Shown: one piece after another, positions 33,347-39,232 of the stretch
Layout: the number at the start of each line of letters is the position of its first letter
Position numbering within the stretch: the first letter of the stretch is position 1
Source of the DNA: Deltaproteobacteria bacterium
GTDB lineage: Bacteria > Myxococcota_A > UBA9160 > SZUA-336
Length of the DNA: 63,236 nt
Direction: 5' to 3'
NCBI GenBank assembly: GCA_016875225.1
Contig: VGRW01000013.1
Span: 1-63,236 of the forward strand
The notes under the pieces: model-generated
Told to the model about the DNA's origin: nothing
The model's input: the letters and a program-made list of their open reading frames with translations, nothing else
Databases searched by the model: none
Position numbers and translations under genes: made by a program

Positions 33347-33850
33347 TCAATCGAATTCGGGGCCATAGCGCACTGCGCCGGAGACGCCGGCGAGCGCGCC
33401 CGGCACGAGCTCCATGGCCATGAACGCGTCGCGCGGTGGCATGTCGGCGTAGCTGAGCCCGAAGCGCGAAGCCGGAACGAAGCCGAAGCGCGGGTAGTAG
33501 GTGGTGTGCCCGAGCACGACCAGGAACGGCGCGCCGCGGGCGCGGCAGGCGTCGATCCCCGCGCGGCACAGGGCGATGCCGGTGCCGCCGCGCTGCAGCG
33601 TCGGCAGGACGCCGACCGGGCCCAGCCCCATCGGCGGGTTCGCGAAGCCGTGCCCGCCGACGGTGACGGGGCTGAACAGCACGTGGCCGACCAGCGCGTC
33701 GCCCTCGAAGGCGGCGAGCGACACGCATTCCGCGCCACGCGAGTGGAGCCGGCGCGCGATCTCCGCCTCGGCATCGCGGCCGAAGGCCTCGCGATGCACA
33801 CGCACGACCGCGGCCTCGTCGCCCGGACCCGCGACACGGATCTGGATCAA
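33347..33850 (-). CDS. GNAT-family N-acetyltransferase
   Basis: The 167-residue protein starts at a TTG that overlaps the stop of the preceding gene (TTGA). It contains the acetyl-CoA pyrophosphate loop in GVLPTLQRGGTGIALCRAGI and GHTTYYPRFGFVPASRFGL, the pattern of YhbS-type GNAT proteins. The acceptor is unknown. It is the last gene of the selenoprotein operon. Confidence 0.8.
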   Translation of the reverse strand: MIQIRVAGPGDEAAVVRVHREAFGRDAEAEIARRLHSRGAECVSLAAFEGDALVGHVLFSPVTVGGHGFANPPMGLGPVGVLPTLQRGGTGIALCRAGIDACRARGAPFLVVLGHTTYYPRFGFVPASRFGLSYADMPPRDAFMAMELVPGALAGVSGAVRYGPEFD

Positions 33851-34443
33851 CCCGGCACCGCCGAGCACACGATCGTGGACCGCGTGAGCTTCTGGCGGCG
33901 CTGGAACTCCTCGCGGCCGACGTCGGCTCGCGACGCCTCCCAGACGGCCAGGCTCGCGTAGCGCGTGAGCAGCAGCACGCGCGCGTCTGGCGGCTGCACG
34001 TCCAGGCTGCGGAAGAAGCCGCAGATGCGCGCGTCGTAGCTGCCCTCGAAGCCGGGCCAGGCGCGAGCCGAGAGGTCTGCGAACTCGGGCCAGTCGCGGT
34101 CGAGGATGTCGAAGAAGCGGAACGCGTAGACGCCCGATCGCGGTGGCGGCGTCGGGTGCGGGGGCCGCAGCGTCGCCACCAGCCGCTCGGCGCGGGACTC
34201 GAGCGCCCCGCCGAACACTGCGTGGAGCGCGGCGGCGCCACGCGCCAGCGCCTCTTCGTCGGGCCACGCGGAGAGCGCGATGCCCTCGTTCGCCTCCAGG
34301 CCGATCTGCCCGCGCCATACACCGAAGAGCGACCCTCCGTTCTCGCGCGCGAGCGCCGCGCCTTCGGCGCGCAGCCTTCCGGCCACCCGCTCCCAGTCAC
34401 CGGGGGCGACCTTGAAGCGCCGGTACTCGTAGGTCTCGTTCAT
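33847..34443 (-). CDS. NIPSNAP-like/dimeric alpha-beta barrel protein
   Basis: This 198-residue protein looks like two ferredoxin-like modules. The first is ETYEYRRFKVAPGDWERVAG with GGSLFGVWRGQIGLEANEGI. The second is GVYAFRFFDILDRDWPEFAD with LTRYASLAVWEASR. The repeated opening strand and W-containing helix resemble NIPSNAP/EthD-like barrels. It sits between the selenoprotein and the acetyltransferase with 4-base overlaps on both sides, so all three are translationally coupled. Its biochemical role is unknown. Confidence 0.6.
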   Translation of the reverse strand: MNETYEYRRFKVAPGDWERVAGRLRAEGAALARENGGSLFGVWRGQIGLEANEGIALSAWPDEEALARGAAALHAVFGGALESRAERLVATLRPPHPTPPPRSGVYAFRFFDILDRDWPEFADLSARAWPGFEGSYDARICGFFRSLDVQPPDARVLLLTRYASLAVWEASRADVGREEFQRRQKLTRSTIVCSAVPG

Positions 34444-35207
34444 CTGGCGTCGGCCTCGCCCATGTTGCGAATCGCGTCGATCACGCGCGTGGGGTCGACG
34501 CGGACGCGGTAGTTCTCGGTCAGATCGCGCCAGCGGATCGTCGAGCCAGAGATCACGTAGCTGGCGGGGCGCGCGATGTCTCCGGTCGCGGGCGGCTCGG
34601 CCAGCGGATAGCCGCCGCGGTGGCGAAGCCCGAAGGCGTCGATCGCGACGAGCTCGGGATCCGACAGCACCGGGAAGCCGAGCCCGAGCCTCTCGACCAC
34701 GCCTCGGTTCAGCTCGACCGAATCGACCGAGATCGCCACGACCTTCGCGCCCGCGCTCTCGAGATCCGAAGCCCTAAGCTGCAGCCCGCGCAGCTCCGAC
34801 ATACAGAAGGGTCACCAGTGGCCGCGGAAGAACACCAGCACGAGCTTGCCGCGCGCGAGCGGCTCGAGGTCGACCGCCTGGCCGCGCTCGTCGAGAAGCG
34901 AGACCGCGGGCACGGCCGCGCCGACGTCGAGCGCGAGCTCTGCGCCGGGAAGCCGGCTGGAGAAGACGTAGCAGTACCAGACGAAGATCCAGCCGAAAAA
35001 GAGCGTCAGCACCAGCCCGATCGCGGCCAGCGCGCGGCGGCGCGAGCGCGCCAGCCCAGCGATCGACAGCCCGAGCGCGATCGCGAGCCCGGTCAGGTTC
35101 ACCCACGGCACGTCGCGGGTCACCGGCCAGGTCGCGAAGATCTCGAAGTACGAGAGCACCGAGATCAGCGCCAGGATCGGGCCGAGCCAGACCATCGGCG
35201 CCAGCAT
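34440..35207 (-). CDS. membrane-anchored peroxiredoxin-like selenoprotein (UxxC)
   Basis: An in-frame TGA (34814-34812) interrupts an otherwise continuous AhpC/TSA-like gene inside its redox motif. The text reads GKLVLVFFRGHW, TGA, then PFCMSELRGLQLRASDLESA. Decoding TGA as selenocysteine gives a 255-residue protein with U132-P-F-C135 at the thioredoxin-fold active site. Three membrane helices (about 5-25, 34-56 and 63-86) precede it. The C-terminal half VVAISVDSVELNRGVVERLG and FPVLSDPELVAIDAFGLRHR is peroxiredoxin-like. Start ATG 35207, or ATG 35195, is uncertain. It likely reduces peroxides or other oxidants at the membrane face. Confidence 0.85.
34776..34796 (-). promoter_or_regulatory. 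candidate bacterial SECIS hairpin
   Basis: Fifteen bases after the UGA, the message can fold GAGCUGC (34796-34790) against GCAGCUU (34782-34776), a 7-pair stem with one G-U pair and the 7-base loop GCGGGCU. A short stem at this distance with G at the start of the apical loop is the usual bacterial SECIS form recognised by SelB. It lies within the coding sequence, as expected. Confidence 0.6.
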
Positions 35208-35279
35208 ACACCGCGCTTTGCACTCGGCTAGCGCGGCCTGCCAGAATCGCCGGACCGCCCGGTGCGGAAGGAGACCCCG

Positions 35280-36827
35280 ATGGCGTCGATCGCACAGACC
35301 CGGTCCGGAAAGATCGAAGGCGAGGAGCGATCGGGCGTCCACGTGTTCCGAGGCGTTCCGTACGCGGCTCCACCGGTCGGCAAGCTTCGCTGGCGCGCGC
35401 CCGAACGCGAGGCCGCCTGGTCGGGCGTGCGGTCGGCTGCGAGCTTCGGCAACGCGTCGCCGCAGAATGCGCTTCCGCTCGATCTGCTCGCGGCCTTCAA
35501 GATCGAGGAGCCCAGGAGCGAAGATTGCCTGTACCTGAACGTCTGGACGCCGGGACTCGACGGCGCGCGGCGGCCCGTGATGGTCTGGATCCACGGCGGC
35601 GCGTTCACGATCGGCTCGGGCGCGCAGTCGCTCTACGACGGCGGGCAGCTCGCGAAGCGCGGTGACGTCGTGGTGGTGACGATCAACTACCGGCTGGGCG
35701 CGCTCGGCTTCCTGCGTCTGGCCGAGCTCACGAACGGGCAGATTCCGTCTACGGGGAACGAGGGGATCCTCGACCAGGTCGCGGCGCTCGAGTGGGTGCG
35801 CGAGAACATCGCGGCGTTCGGCGGCGATCCCGAGAACGTGACGATCTTCGGCGAGTCCGCGGGCGCGATGAGCGTCGGCACGCTGCTCGGCATGCCGAAG
35901 GCGCGCGGGCTGTTCCAGAAGGCGATCCCGCAGAGCGGCGCGAGCCACACGGCAAGCGCGCTCGAGCGACACGTTCGGGTGGCGCAGAAGTTCGCCGAGA
36001 TCACCGGCGCGTGGGACGCCGAGGGGCTGCTCGCGCTGCCCACCGATTCGCTGCTCGCGGCCGCCGCGCGGATCGCGCCGGTTCCCGGTCAGGAGGCGGA
36101 TCCGCAGATCGGCGGCATGCCGCTGCAGCCGGTGATCGACGGCAGCGTGGTTCCGCGTCTCTCGATCGAGTCGGTCGCGCGCGGCTCGGCCGCGGGTGTC
36201 GGGCTTCTGGTCGGCTCGACGCTGGACGAGTGGAAGCTCTTCGCGGCGATGGACCCGAGCGTGACGTCGCTCTCCGACGAGCCGCTGGTCGCACGCGTAG
36301 AGAAGCGCCTGGGCGCCGCAGGCCGGCCGCTGGTCGAGACCTATCGAAAGGCGAGGACGGAGCGCGGCGCCGGCGCGAGCGCGCCCGAGCTCTTCATGGC
36401 GATCGAGACCGACCGGATCTTCCGCATGCCCGGCCTGGCGCTGATCGAGGCGCAGCGGGAGCACGACGCGCGCGTCTACAGCTACCTGTTCACCTGGCCA
36501 TCGCCGATGTTCGGCGGGATGTTCGGGGCGTGTCACGCGGTCGAGCTCGGCTTCGTGTTCGGAACCCACGATCGCCCGGGCGTTTCGGAGTTCTCGGGCG
36601 CGGGTGCGGCCGCCGACGCGCTCGCCGCGTCGACGATGGACGCCTGGATCGCGTTCGCGCGAAGCGGCGATCCGAGCTCGCAGTCGCTCGGGCGCTGGCC
36701 GGCCTACACCGCATCGGATCGCGCGACCATGCTTCTCGGCGAGCGCAGCCGGATGGAGCACGCGCCGCTCGAAGAGGAGCGCCGCGCCTGGGACGCGGTT
36801 CCGAAACAAGTGCTGGGCGCGGTCTGA
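35280..36827 (+). CDS. type-B carboxylesterase (first of a pair)
   Basis: A 515-residue alpha/beta hydrolase starts at an ATG with GGAAGGAG upstream. Family features are FRGVPYAAPPVGKLRWRAPE, SEDCLYLNVWTPG, the oxyanion loop VWIHGGAFTIGSG, and the nucleophile elbow IFGESAGAMS. The acidic triad residue lies in GSTLDEWKLF, and the histidine in FGACHAVELGFVFG. All three catalytic residues are in place. No signal peptide is seen, so it should act in the cytosol. It is followed by a crotonase and a second carboxylesterase in one transcript. Confidence 0.9.
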   Translation: MASIAQTRSGKIEGEERSGVHVFRGVPYAAPPVGKLRWRAPEREAAWSGVRSAASFGNASPQNALPLDLLAAFKIEEPRSEDCLYLNVWTPGLDGARRPVMVWIHGGAFTIGSGAQSLYDGGQLAKRGDVVVVTINYRLGALGFLRLAELTNGQIPSTGNEGILDQVAALEWVRENIAAFGGDPENVTIFGESAGAMSVGTLLGMPKARGLFQKAIPQSGASHTASALERHVRVAQKFAEITGAWDAEGLLALPTDSLLAAAARIAPVPGQEADPQIGGMPLQPVIDGSVVPRLSIESVARGSAAGVGLLVGSTLDEWKLFAAMDPSVTSLSDEPLVARVEKRLGAAGRPLVETYRKARTERGAGASAPELFMAIETDRIFRMPGLALIEAQREHDARVYSYLFTWPSPMFGGMFGACHAVELGFVFGTHDRPGVSEFSGAGAAADALAASTMDAWIAFARSGDPSSQSLGRWPAYTASDRATMLLGERSRMEHAPLEEERRAWDAVPKQVLGAV

Positions 36828-36830
36828 GCC

Positions 36831-37730
36831 ATGGGTGACTGGAAGAACATCCGCTACCAGGTGGAGCACGGCCGCGCGCGGATCACGCTCGATCGCCCGG
36901 AGAAACGCAACGCGCTCTCGCTCGCGCTGCTCGAGGAGCTCTCGCTCGCGCTCTGGGACGCGGACGCGGACCGCGAGGTGCACGCCGTGATCATCCGCGG
37001 CGCCGGCTCCTGCTTCAGCGCCGGCTACGACCTCACCGAGCCGCCGAAGTCCGCGGGCCTGCGCGAGGGCGCGCGCTACCGCGGCGGCCGCAGCGTAGAC
37101 GACGACATCTGGCAGCTCGAGCGCGCGCAGCGCCTGCGCATGGCGATCTTCGACATGCACAAGCCGGTGATCGCGCAGGTCCACGGCCACTGCCTGGCTG
37201 GCGGAACCGACATCGCCCTGCTCTGCGACATGGTGATCGCCGCCGACGACGCGCGCTTCGGCTTTCCGCCCGCGCGCGACCTTGGCGCTCTGCCCAACAA
37301 CATGTGGCTGTACAACGTGGGCCCGCAGTGGGCCAAGCGCCTGACGCTCACGGGCGACACGATCACGGGCGCCGAGGCGGCGCAGATCGGCCTGGTGATG
37401 AAGTCCGTGCCGCCCGATCTGCTCGAGGCCGAGGTCGAGGGCCTGGCGGATCGGCTGGCGCTGGTGGACGCGGATCTGCTCGCGGCGAACAAGCGGATCA
37501 TCAATCTCGGGCTCGAGCTGATGGGCGCGCGCACGCTGCAGCGGCTGGCCTGCGAGAACGACGCTCGGGGTCACCTCGCCGCGAGCGCCCGCGGGTTCGT
37601 CGCGACCGCCGCCGAGAAGGGGCTCAAGGCGGCGCTGCAGGAGCGCGACGCGAAGTTCGGCGACGGCCGCGCGCGCGTGAACGGACCCGAGCTGCGCGAT
37701 TCGCGCGGACACCTGAAGGAAGAGCGCTGA
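36831..37730 (+). CDS. crotonase-family protein between two esterases
   Basis: The 299-residue protein shows LDRPEKRNALSLALLEEL, FSAGYDLTEPP and GHCLAGGTDIALLCDMVIAA of the crotonase fold. The active-site strand reads FGFPPARDLGALPNNMWLYN, with Pro where hydratases have the first catalytic Glu. The classical hydratase pair is therefore missing. This subgroup is widespread in Actinobacteria and Myxococcota with unknown chemistry. It is 3 bases after the first esterase, and its stop overlaps the start of the second. Confidence 0.85.
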   Translation: MGDWKNIRYQVEHGRARITLDRPEKRNALSLALLEELSLALWDADADREVHAVIIRGAGSCFSAGYDLTEPPKSAGLREGARYRGGRSVDDDIWQLERAQRLRMAIFDMHKPVIAQVHGHCLAGGTDIALLCDMVIAADDARFGFPPARDLGALPNNMWLYNVGPQWAKRLTLTGDTITGAEAAQIGLVMKSVPPDLLEAEVEGLADRLALVDADLLAANKRIINLGLELMGARTLQRLACENDARGHLAASARGFVATAAEKGLKAALQERDAKFGDGRARVNGPELRDSRGHLKEER

Positions 37731-39232
37731 TGGCCGCGATCGTCGAGACCCGTCTCGGAAAAGTGTCGGGGGAGGAGCTGGCCGATCACACGCGCTTCCG
37801 CGGCATTCCGTACGCGGCTCCGCCGGTCGGGGAGCTGCGCTTCCGCGCGCCGCGACCCGCGGCGCCGTGGGCGGGCGTGCGCGAGGCGCGCGCGTTCGGT
37901 CACGCGGCGCCGCAGAACCCGAGCTTCCTGCCCGGGATGGAGTCGGGCGACCAGAGCGAGGACTGCCTGTACCTGAACGTGTACACGCCGCGCGCCGACG
38001 CGGCGCGAAGGCCCGTGCTGTTCTGGATCCACGGCGGCGGATTCACCGGCGGCTCGGGCGGACAGGCGCTCTACGACGGCGGTCGGCTCGCCGCGCGCGG
38101 CGACGTGGTGGTGGTGACGATCAACTACCGGCTCGGGGCGCTCGGCTACACGAACCTGGAGAGGCTCGACGCGAACCTGGGCCAGCAGGACCAGATCGCG
38201 GCGCTGCGCTTCGTGCGCGAGAACATCGCCGCCTTCGGCGGAGACCCGGACCGGATCACGATCTTCGGCGAGAGCGCGGGTGGAATGGCGGTCTCGACGC
38301 TTCTCGCCATGCCGGCCGCGCGCGGCCTGTTCCGCGGCGCGATCGCGCAGAGCGGCGCCGCCCACCACGTGCACTCGCGCGAGAGCGCGGCGCGGGTCGC
38401 GATCGCGCTTCTGGCCGAGCTAGGGCTCGGCCCGAACGACGTCGGCAGGCTTCGCGACGTGCCGGTGCCGGCGCTGCTCGCGGCGCAGGCGAAGCTGCTC
38501 GTCGAGACCGCGCGCGGCGGGGCGCTGCTCGCCTTCGCGCCCGCGCTCGACGCCGACACGCTTCCGCGTCACCCGCTGGAGGCGGTGCGCGACGGAACGG
38601 CGCGCGACGTCGCGCTCCTGGTCGGCGCGAACCGGGACGAGATCAAGCTGTTCCGCATGGGCGTTGCGGCCAGCGCCGAGCTCGACGCAGCGGGTCTGGC
38701 CAAGCGAGTGCGCGGCGGTCTGCGCGCGCACGGCGCGGACGAGTCGCACGCGGAGCGACTGATCGAGACCTACCGCACGGCGCGCGCAGGCCGCGCGTCG
38801 ACCGAACCCGGAGAGCTTCTCGACGCGCTCGACTCCGACCGCACCTTCCGCGTGCCCGCGATCCGCCTCGCCGAGGCGCAGGCGCCGCACCAGCCGCGCA
38901 CCTACGAGTACTTCTTCACCTGGAGCTCGCCCGCGCGGCGCGGAACGCTCGGTGCCTGTCACGCGCTCGAGCTGCCGTTCGTCTTCGGAACGCTCGACGC
39001 ACCGACGATGGACAAATTCGCCGGCAAGGGCCCCGAGGCCGAGGCGCTCTCGGCGCGGATGATGGACGCCTGGATCGCCTTCGCGCGAAGCGGCGAGCCG
39101 GGCCACGCGGCGCTGCCCGCCTGGCCGGGCTACGACACGGCGGAGCGCGCGACGCTGATCTTCGATCGCCAGTGCGAGCTCGCAAACGCCCCGCTCGACG
39201 CCGAGCGCGCGGCCTGGGAAGGCGTGATCTAG
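37730..39232 (+). CDS. type-B carboxylesterase (second of a pair)
   Basis: This 500-residue paralogue of the esterase two genes upstream has the same order of motifs. These are FRGIPYAAPPVGELRFRAPR, SEDCLYLNVYTPR, WIHGGGFTGGSG, nucleophile IFGESAGGMA, acidic NRDEIKLF and histidine LGACHALELPFVFG. The ATG shares a base with the crotonase stop (TGATG). The two esterases look like an old tandem duplication with a crotonase between them, suggesting a pathway that hydrolyses esters before or alongside acyl-CoA conversion. Confidence 0.9.
   Translation: MAAIVETRLGKVSGEELADHTRFRGIPYAAPPVGELRFRAPRPAAPWAGVREARAFGHAAPQNPSFLPGMESGDQSEDCLYLNVYTPRADAARRPVLFWIHGGGFTGGSGGQALYDGGRLAARGDVVVVTINYRLGALGYTNLERLDANLGQQDQIAALRFVRENIAAFGGDPDRITIFGESAGGMAVSTLLAMPAARGLFRGAIAQSGAAHHVHSRESAARVAIALLAELGLGPNDVGRLRDVPVPALLAAQAKLLVETARGGALLAFAPALDADTLPRHPLEAVRDGTARDVALLVGANRDEIKLFRMGVAASAELDAAGLAKRVRGGLRAHGADESHAERLIETYRTARAGRASTEPGELLDALDSDRTFRVPAIRLAEAQAPHQPRTYEYFFTWSSPARRGTLGACHALELPFVFGTLDAPTMDKFAGKGPEAEALSARMMDAWIAFARSGEPGHAALPAWPGYDTAERATLIFDRQCELANAPLDAERAAWEGVI

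Follow-up and report, generated by a model that had tools for sequence, protein, structure and literature searches.

This locus raises the question of whether a TGA codon in the middle of a gene is a stop or is read as selenocysteine (Sec) and, in the latter case, what kind of protein results. The gene spans positions 34440–35207 (minus strand) of the window, that is, the whole 63,236-nucleotide stretch of DNA that was analysed. It runs from an ATG at 35207 (an alternative ATG start is found at 35195) to a terminal TGA stop at 34442–34440. When TGA is translated as U, this is one frame of 255 residues in which TGA occurs internally only once, at residue 132 (34812–34814, minus). The preliminary description had placed the gene correctly and had left its strand unstated. 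The sequence reads MLAPMVWLGP...LVLVFFRGHW-U-PFCMSELRGLQ..., and translation and homologue alignment both put Sec132 in an active-site UPFC motif, where Cys135 (TGT, 34803–34805, minus) is the probable resolving cysteine.

The reading frame and the selenocysteine machinery

Mechanical ORF calling divides the gene into two ORFs, one of which is 34440–34802, as had been anticipated. These are two halves of one domain, because the Pfam AhpC-TSA match (residues 95–221; E 7.9e-21, 74.7 bits against a gathering cut-off of 26) and the Redoxin match (8.2e-15) run across the TGA. This thioredoxin-fold domain occupies 34545–34925 on the minus strand, and the claim that the halves join in frame across a single TGA at the active site stands. 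On either side of TGA132, the base composition by codon position resembles that of coding DNA (GC3 0.95/0.88, GC2 0.45/0.42); eight other read-through candidates in the window passed the same filter, and this two-sided signature is seen in none of them.

Selenoproteins require dedicated genes to be present, and the preliminary description had named selA, selB, selC and selD as the ones to look for. All four are found in the genome to which the window belongs (97.8% complete, 182 contigs, contamination given as 2.5%). The tRNA-Sec (selC) scores 75.6 bits and is confirmed by ARAGORN as tRNA-SeC with anticodon tca, and it is accompanied by SelA (E 2e-128), SelB (E 2e-87, a long open frame) and SelD (E 8e-100). 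These genes are on contigs C7, C28, C59 and C36, which are other than that of the window, and their assignment to the genome rests on binning. SelD (L018, G000:C36) is a selenoprotein itself, having an in-frame TGA where SelD usually has Sec (GGGUARKLG). On sequence evidence, the organism uses Sec.

Conservation of the TGA, and a putative SECIS hairpin downstream

Homologues were sought in 98 genomes picked as relatives. The five best full-length matches among these 98 (G043, G010, G020, G008 and G059; 41–53% identity) have exactly one TGA each, in the column of residue 132 and with both halves in frame. Clade A, as we call the window protein and its six homologues, which show 40–49% identity to it, has TGA in this column in 6/7 members and Cys in 1/7 (L021, CPFC). 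Residues W131, P133, F134 and C135 are invariant, conservation continues past the TGA at N167, D183, R213-P214 and W226, and the clade motif is RG[HF]WUPFCMS[EA]LxGLQ. A conserved in-frame TGA with Cys in some homologues is one mark of a bacterial selenoprotein, and the presence of selA, selB, selC and selD is another; both are seen here. This bears out the expectation of Sec or Cys at position 132, and the homologues do not end at this codon, since their downstream halves align. A single-protein search of genome contigs returned one true relative only, the Cys form L021. The candidates L022 and L023 were rejected as ordinary AhpC/TSA proteins.

In a tree, the seven clade-A members form one group (support 85/97) that is separate from another two Sec clades, B (motif FFRGHWUPYCVAELRRW) and C (FYRGDWUPFCRxELVQL). 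Clades B and C (L030–L053) are AhpC/TSA selenoproteins with hydrophobic N-terminal parts that are widespread in the class, often with several per genome. Clade A is present in 6 of 91 genomes of the class, from three families, and at E 1e-45 a phylum sample of 379 genomes yielded no additional member from beyond the class. The trait is patchy, in that the congener G001 lacks the gene and shows no tRNA-Sec signal exceeding that of the tRNA-Ser background. The DNA pattern W-TGA-P-[FY]-C occurs more than 110 times in 66 of the 91 class genomes, against 7 occurrences of the reversed pattern; the window's own genome has one, at codon 132. A tRNA-Sec, called with a threshold of 58 bits because scores break off visibly between 58 and 52 bits, is found in 53/61 genomes with a strong TGA-bearing match of the wider family and in 20/37 others (Fisher p 6e-4). 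The eight exceptions are MAGs of 76–90% estimated completeness. L065 (G034:C91, RGNWCPLC), a Cys relative with a full-length membrane part, shares its genome with TGA forms.

A putative bacterial SECIS-like hairpin, identified by fold and codon constraint, follows the TGA at 34776–34796 (minus). Here, the sequence GAGCUGCG-CGGGC-UGCAGCUU plus one further G can pair as an 8-bp stem, with the loop CGGGC starting 23 nt downstream of TGA132 and an energy of -8.9 to -16.6 kcal/mol depending on fold length. The bSECIS model of PMC13188914 is a stem-loop with G in the first two loop positions, a loop 16–37 nt after the TGA and an MFE <= -7.5. The hairpin has these properties, as do 33/60 synonymous shuffles, making the criteria permissive. 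In this GC-rich DNA, its energy shows no excess over 60 such shuffles (z 0.0), and pair covariation across six sequences is not significant (77/500). Rfam SECIS_1 has no match in the genome, and the controls gave no match either.

Codon choice is more informative. The loop Gly of clade A is GGG or GGT in 6/6 Sec genes against a background of 30% (product 8e-4, the rows being related), and the Cys homologue L021 has Asp in its place. Clade B uses TTR for the loop Leu in 14/14 (background 7.5%), and the opposite codon is CGA (9%); CTG...CTC is invariant in clade C (10/10). Since the rows are related within each of the three clades, these figures are not strict probabilities. Within clade A alone, the support for a SECIS is modest, with codon choice the better evidence compared with the fold criteria. 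The synonymous-codon constraint after the TGA in the paralogous Sec clades B and C is striking. The hairpins of clades B and C look clade-specific and enforced by rare codons (TTR and CGA in clade B).

Oxidoreductase type, neighbouring genes and topology

In the alignment, UPFC lies opposite CPHC in a ResA variant and S-P-V-C in an archaeal Prx. Sec132 takes up the position that the first cysteine of CxxC holds in ResA and that Thr/Ser holds in peroxiredoxins. Comparisons of sequence and of fold both place ResA and PrxQ among the closest proteins of solved structure. The domain score and the UxxC motif (UPFC) are both those of a Prx-like thiol:disulfide oxidoreductase (PF00578, UxxC). Specific family models score low: the ResA model NF002854 gives 41.0 against a cut-off of 170 bits, the best NCBIfam match, SelL-related NF040769, gives 42.6 against 120 bits, and no NCBIfam cut-off is reached by any tested member of clades A, B or C.

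The next gene downstream (33847–34443, minus) is NIPSNAP-like and overlaps the selenoprotein stop through ATGA, which makes co-transcription possible. It is followed by a GNAT-like gene and then an HpaB-type hydroxylase, and the divergent upstream neighbour is carboxylesterase-like; the GNAT-like and carboxylesterase-like genes were named from reading their translations. On the plus strand, two type-B carboxylesterase-like genes (35262–36827 and about 37725–39232) flank an enoyl-CoA hydratase-like gene, names that come from translations and not from a family search.

Three alternatives to a membrane-anchored selenoprotein of the thiol:disulfide type can be set against these data. If TGA132 were a true stop, the locus would hold a truncated three-helix protein and a C-terminal fragment that is either separate or dead, the product of a pseudogene or a sequencing error. 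The split made by ORF calling is precisely what this predicts, but the AhpC-TSA domain continues across the codon, codon composition is coding-like on either side, the Sec machinery of the genome is complete, and five other genomes carry the same TGA followed by a conserved downstream half. The conservation of the TGA and both halves in homologues effectively rules out a sequencing error, a pseudogene or a pair of separate genes; a genuine stop is in practice refuted by this conservation and is highly improbable. We infer that TGA132 is very probably read as selenocysteine and that the gene very probably encodes a real bacterial selenoprotein. The full-length product might then be a true peroxiredoxin that reduces peroxide with Sec as the peroxidatic residue. 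This would suit the AhpC-TSA/Redoxin domain and the top Foldseek matches, which are PrxQ/Bcp (ResA is also found, and as the query model is weak, at pLDDT 60, only the fold class was taken from it). Against this, the PxxxT/SxxC(U) motif of peroxiredoxins proper is absent, the motif being RGHWUPFC, with Sec132 at the Thr/Ser position and C135 at that of the peroxidatic Cys, an arrangement shared with CxxC oxidoreductases. In addition, no NCBIfam Prx model comes near its cut-off, and a classical Sec-peroxiredoxin, with FTPGU, is encoded elsewhere in the genome (L087, G000:C15:55097-55468). A peroxiredoxin is thus unlikely. Because Sec132 sits at the first Cys of CxxC, the protein is Prx-like by domain and of the thiol:disulfide type by motif, and a mechanism of the latter type is probable from the sequence. 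The label "peroxiredoxin-like UxxC" thus holds for the AhpC/TSA domain and for UxxC, and fails for the peroxiredoxin motif.

The remaining alternative concerns the neighbours, which the preliminary description regarded as partners: the selenoprotein, NIPSNAP and GNAT genes would form a functional operon serving one shared pathway. They share a strand, and the ATGA overlap joins the selenoprotein stop to the NIPSNAP start. However, in tblastn searches of the flanks of six homologues (those of L021 and L073 being short), the selenoprotein itself was the only window gene found, neither partner adjoins any of them, and L069 and L070 are flanked by other genes. A conserved NIPSNAP/GNAT operon was rejected on this ground, and a functional one is quite improbable. 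Because none was recovered in homologue flanks, the neighbours are probably incidental.

Two other TGA-bearing AhpC/TSA genes occur in the same genome, L095 (G000:C120:2289-2585, with a ULFC motif) and L089 (G000:C53:6854-7246).

Three predicted transmembrane helices (about residues 5–24, 34–53 and 58–84; 34956–35195, minus) precede the domain, as had been proposed. Hydropathy shows three N-terminal helices in the homologues, and a fourth peak in the window protein is marginal, barely above the cut-off. The structure model (pLDDT 60) shows a short helix at 28–32 besides three long ones at the N-terminus. The loop between helices 2 and 3 is R-rich in the window protein (ARSRRR) and predicted to be cytoplasmic; across the homologues, K/R counts are 2–6 in this loop and 0–2 in that between helices 1 and 2. 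Because of this K/R-rich loop, the positive-inside rule places the catalytic domain outside the cytoplasm, likely on the periplasmic side.

Relation to known selenoproteins and proposed function

The general family is already catalogued: PMC13188914 (Table 1) and PMC9312934 count among the predicted selenoproteins a "Prx-like thiol:disulfide oxidoreductase, PF00578, UxxC/UxxU", and 225 sequences of "Prx-like 1" came from the GOS survey (PMC2398784). The window protein shares with it the Pfam domain, Sec as the first residue of UxxC, the bacterial Sec system and the existence of a Cys homologue. It differs in that its clade has a three-helix anchor, which goes unmentioned in the passages and tables consulted of PMC13188914, PMC9312934 and PMC2398784, and a motif of its own. 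A search of the literature, largely of openly readable main texts, gave no description of the three-helix form, and nothing was found on selenoprotein together with Binatia or Myxococcota. The expectation of a little-described protein therefore applies to the three-helix form and not to the family, and the clade is at most a variant branch of the catalogued UxxC Prx-like selenoproteins.

Other relatives can be compared as well. ResA/TlpA (PDB 3c71, 1st9) have the thioredoxin fold, a CxxC aligned with UxxC, a membrane tether and a probable extracytoplasmic domain in common with the window protein, which has Sec in place of Cys, three helices in place of one and about 20% identity. Classical Sec-peroxiredoxins also have an AhpC-TSA domain and Sec, in TxxU rather than UxxC. 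SelL proper has UxxU. The SelL-related family (NF040769) resembles the window protein in its redox domain and differs from it by the latter's UxxC.

In the proposed mechanism, SelB- and tRNA-Sec-dependent recoding of the TGA at codon 132 would give the full-length selenoprotein. The three N-terminal helices would anchor it, with the thioredoxin-fold Prx-like domain on the predicted periplasmic side. There, the U132-P-F-C135 pair probably alternates between a selenol/thiol and a selenenylsulfide state: Sec132 would attack a presumed disulfide or peroxide-type substrate and Cys135 would resolve the intermediate. A membrane thiol carrier of the DsbD/CcdA type may then re-reduce the pair. The two DsbD_TM matches in the genome are possible reductants, and nothing ties either to the window selenoprotein.

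With the window gene, the UxxC Prx-like selenoproteins gain a branch that is anchored in the membrane and probably periplasmic. The class it comes from commonly has tRNA-Sec and is rich in selenoproteins of the AhpC/TSA fold, all of them split in two by standard ORF calling. Clades B and C together offer clean data on clade-specific SECIS elements of bacteria, as read from constraint on synonymous codons. It is conceivable, as a tentative reading, that clade A is an undescribed membrane-anchored Sec subfamily, the periplasmic Sec counterpart of ResA/TlpA, in a class with repeated Sec diversification of this fold. If so, there would be a Sec-based extracytoplasmic disulfide-reducing system, and the fold would have diversified as selenoproteins in at least three clades of the class, each with its own SECIS solution.
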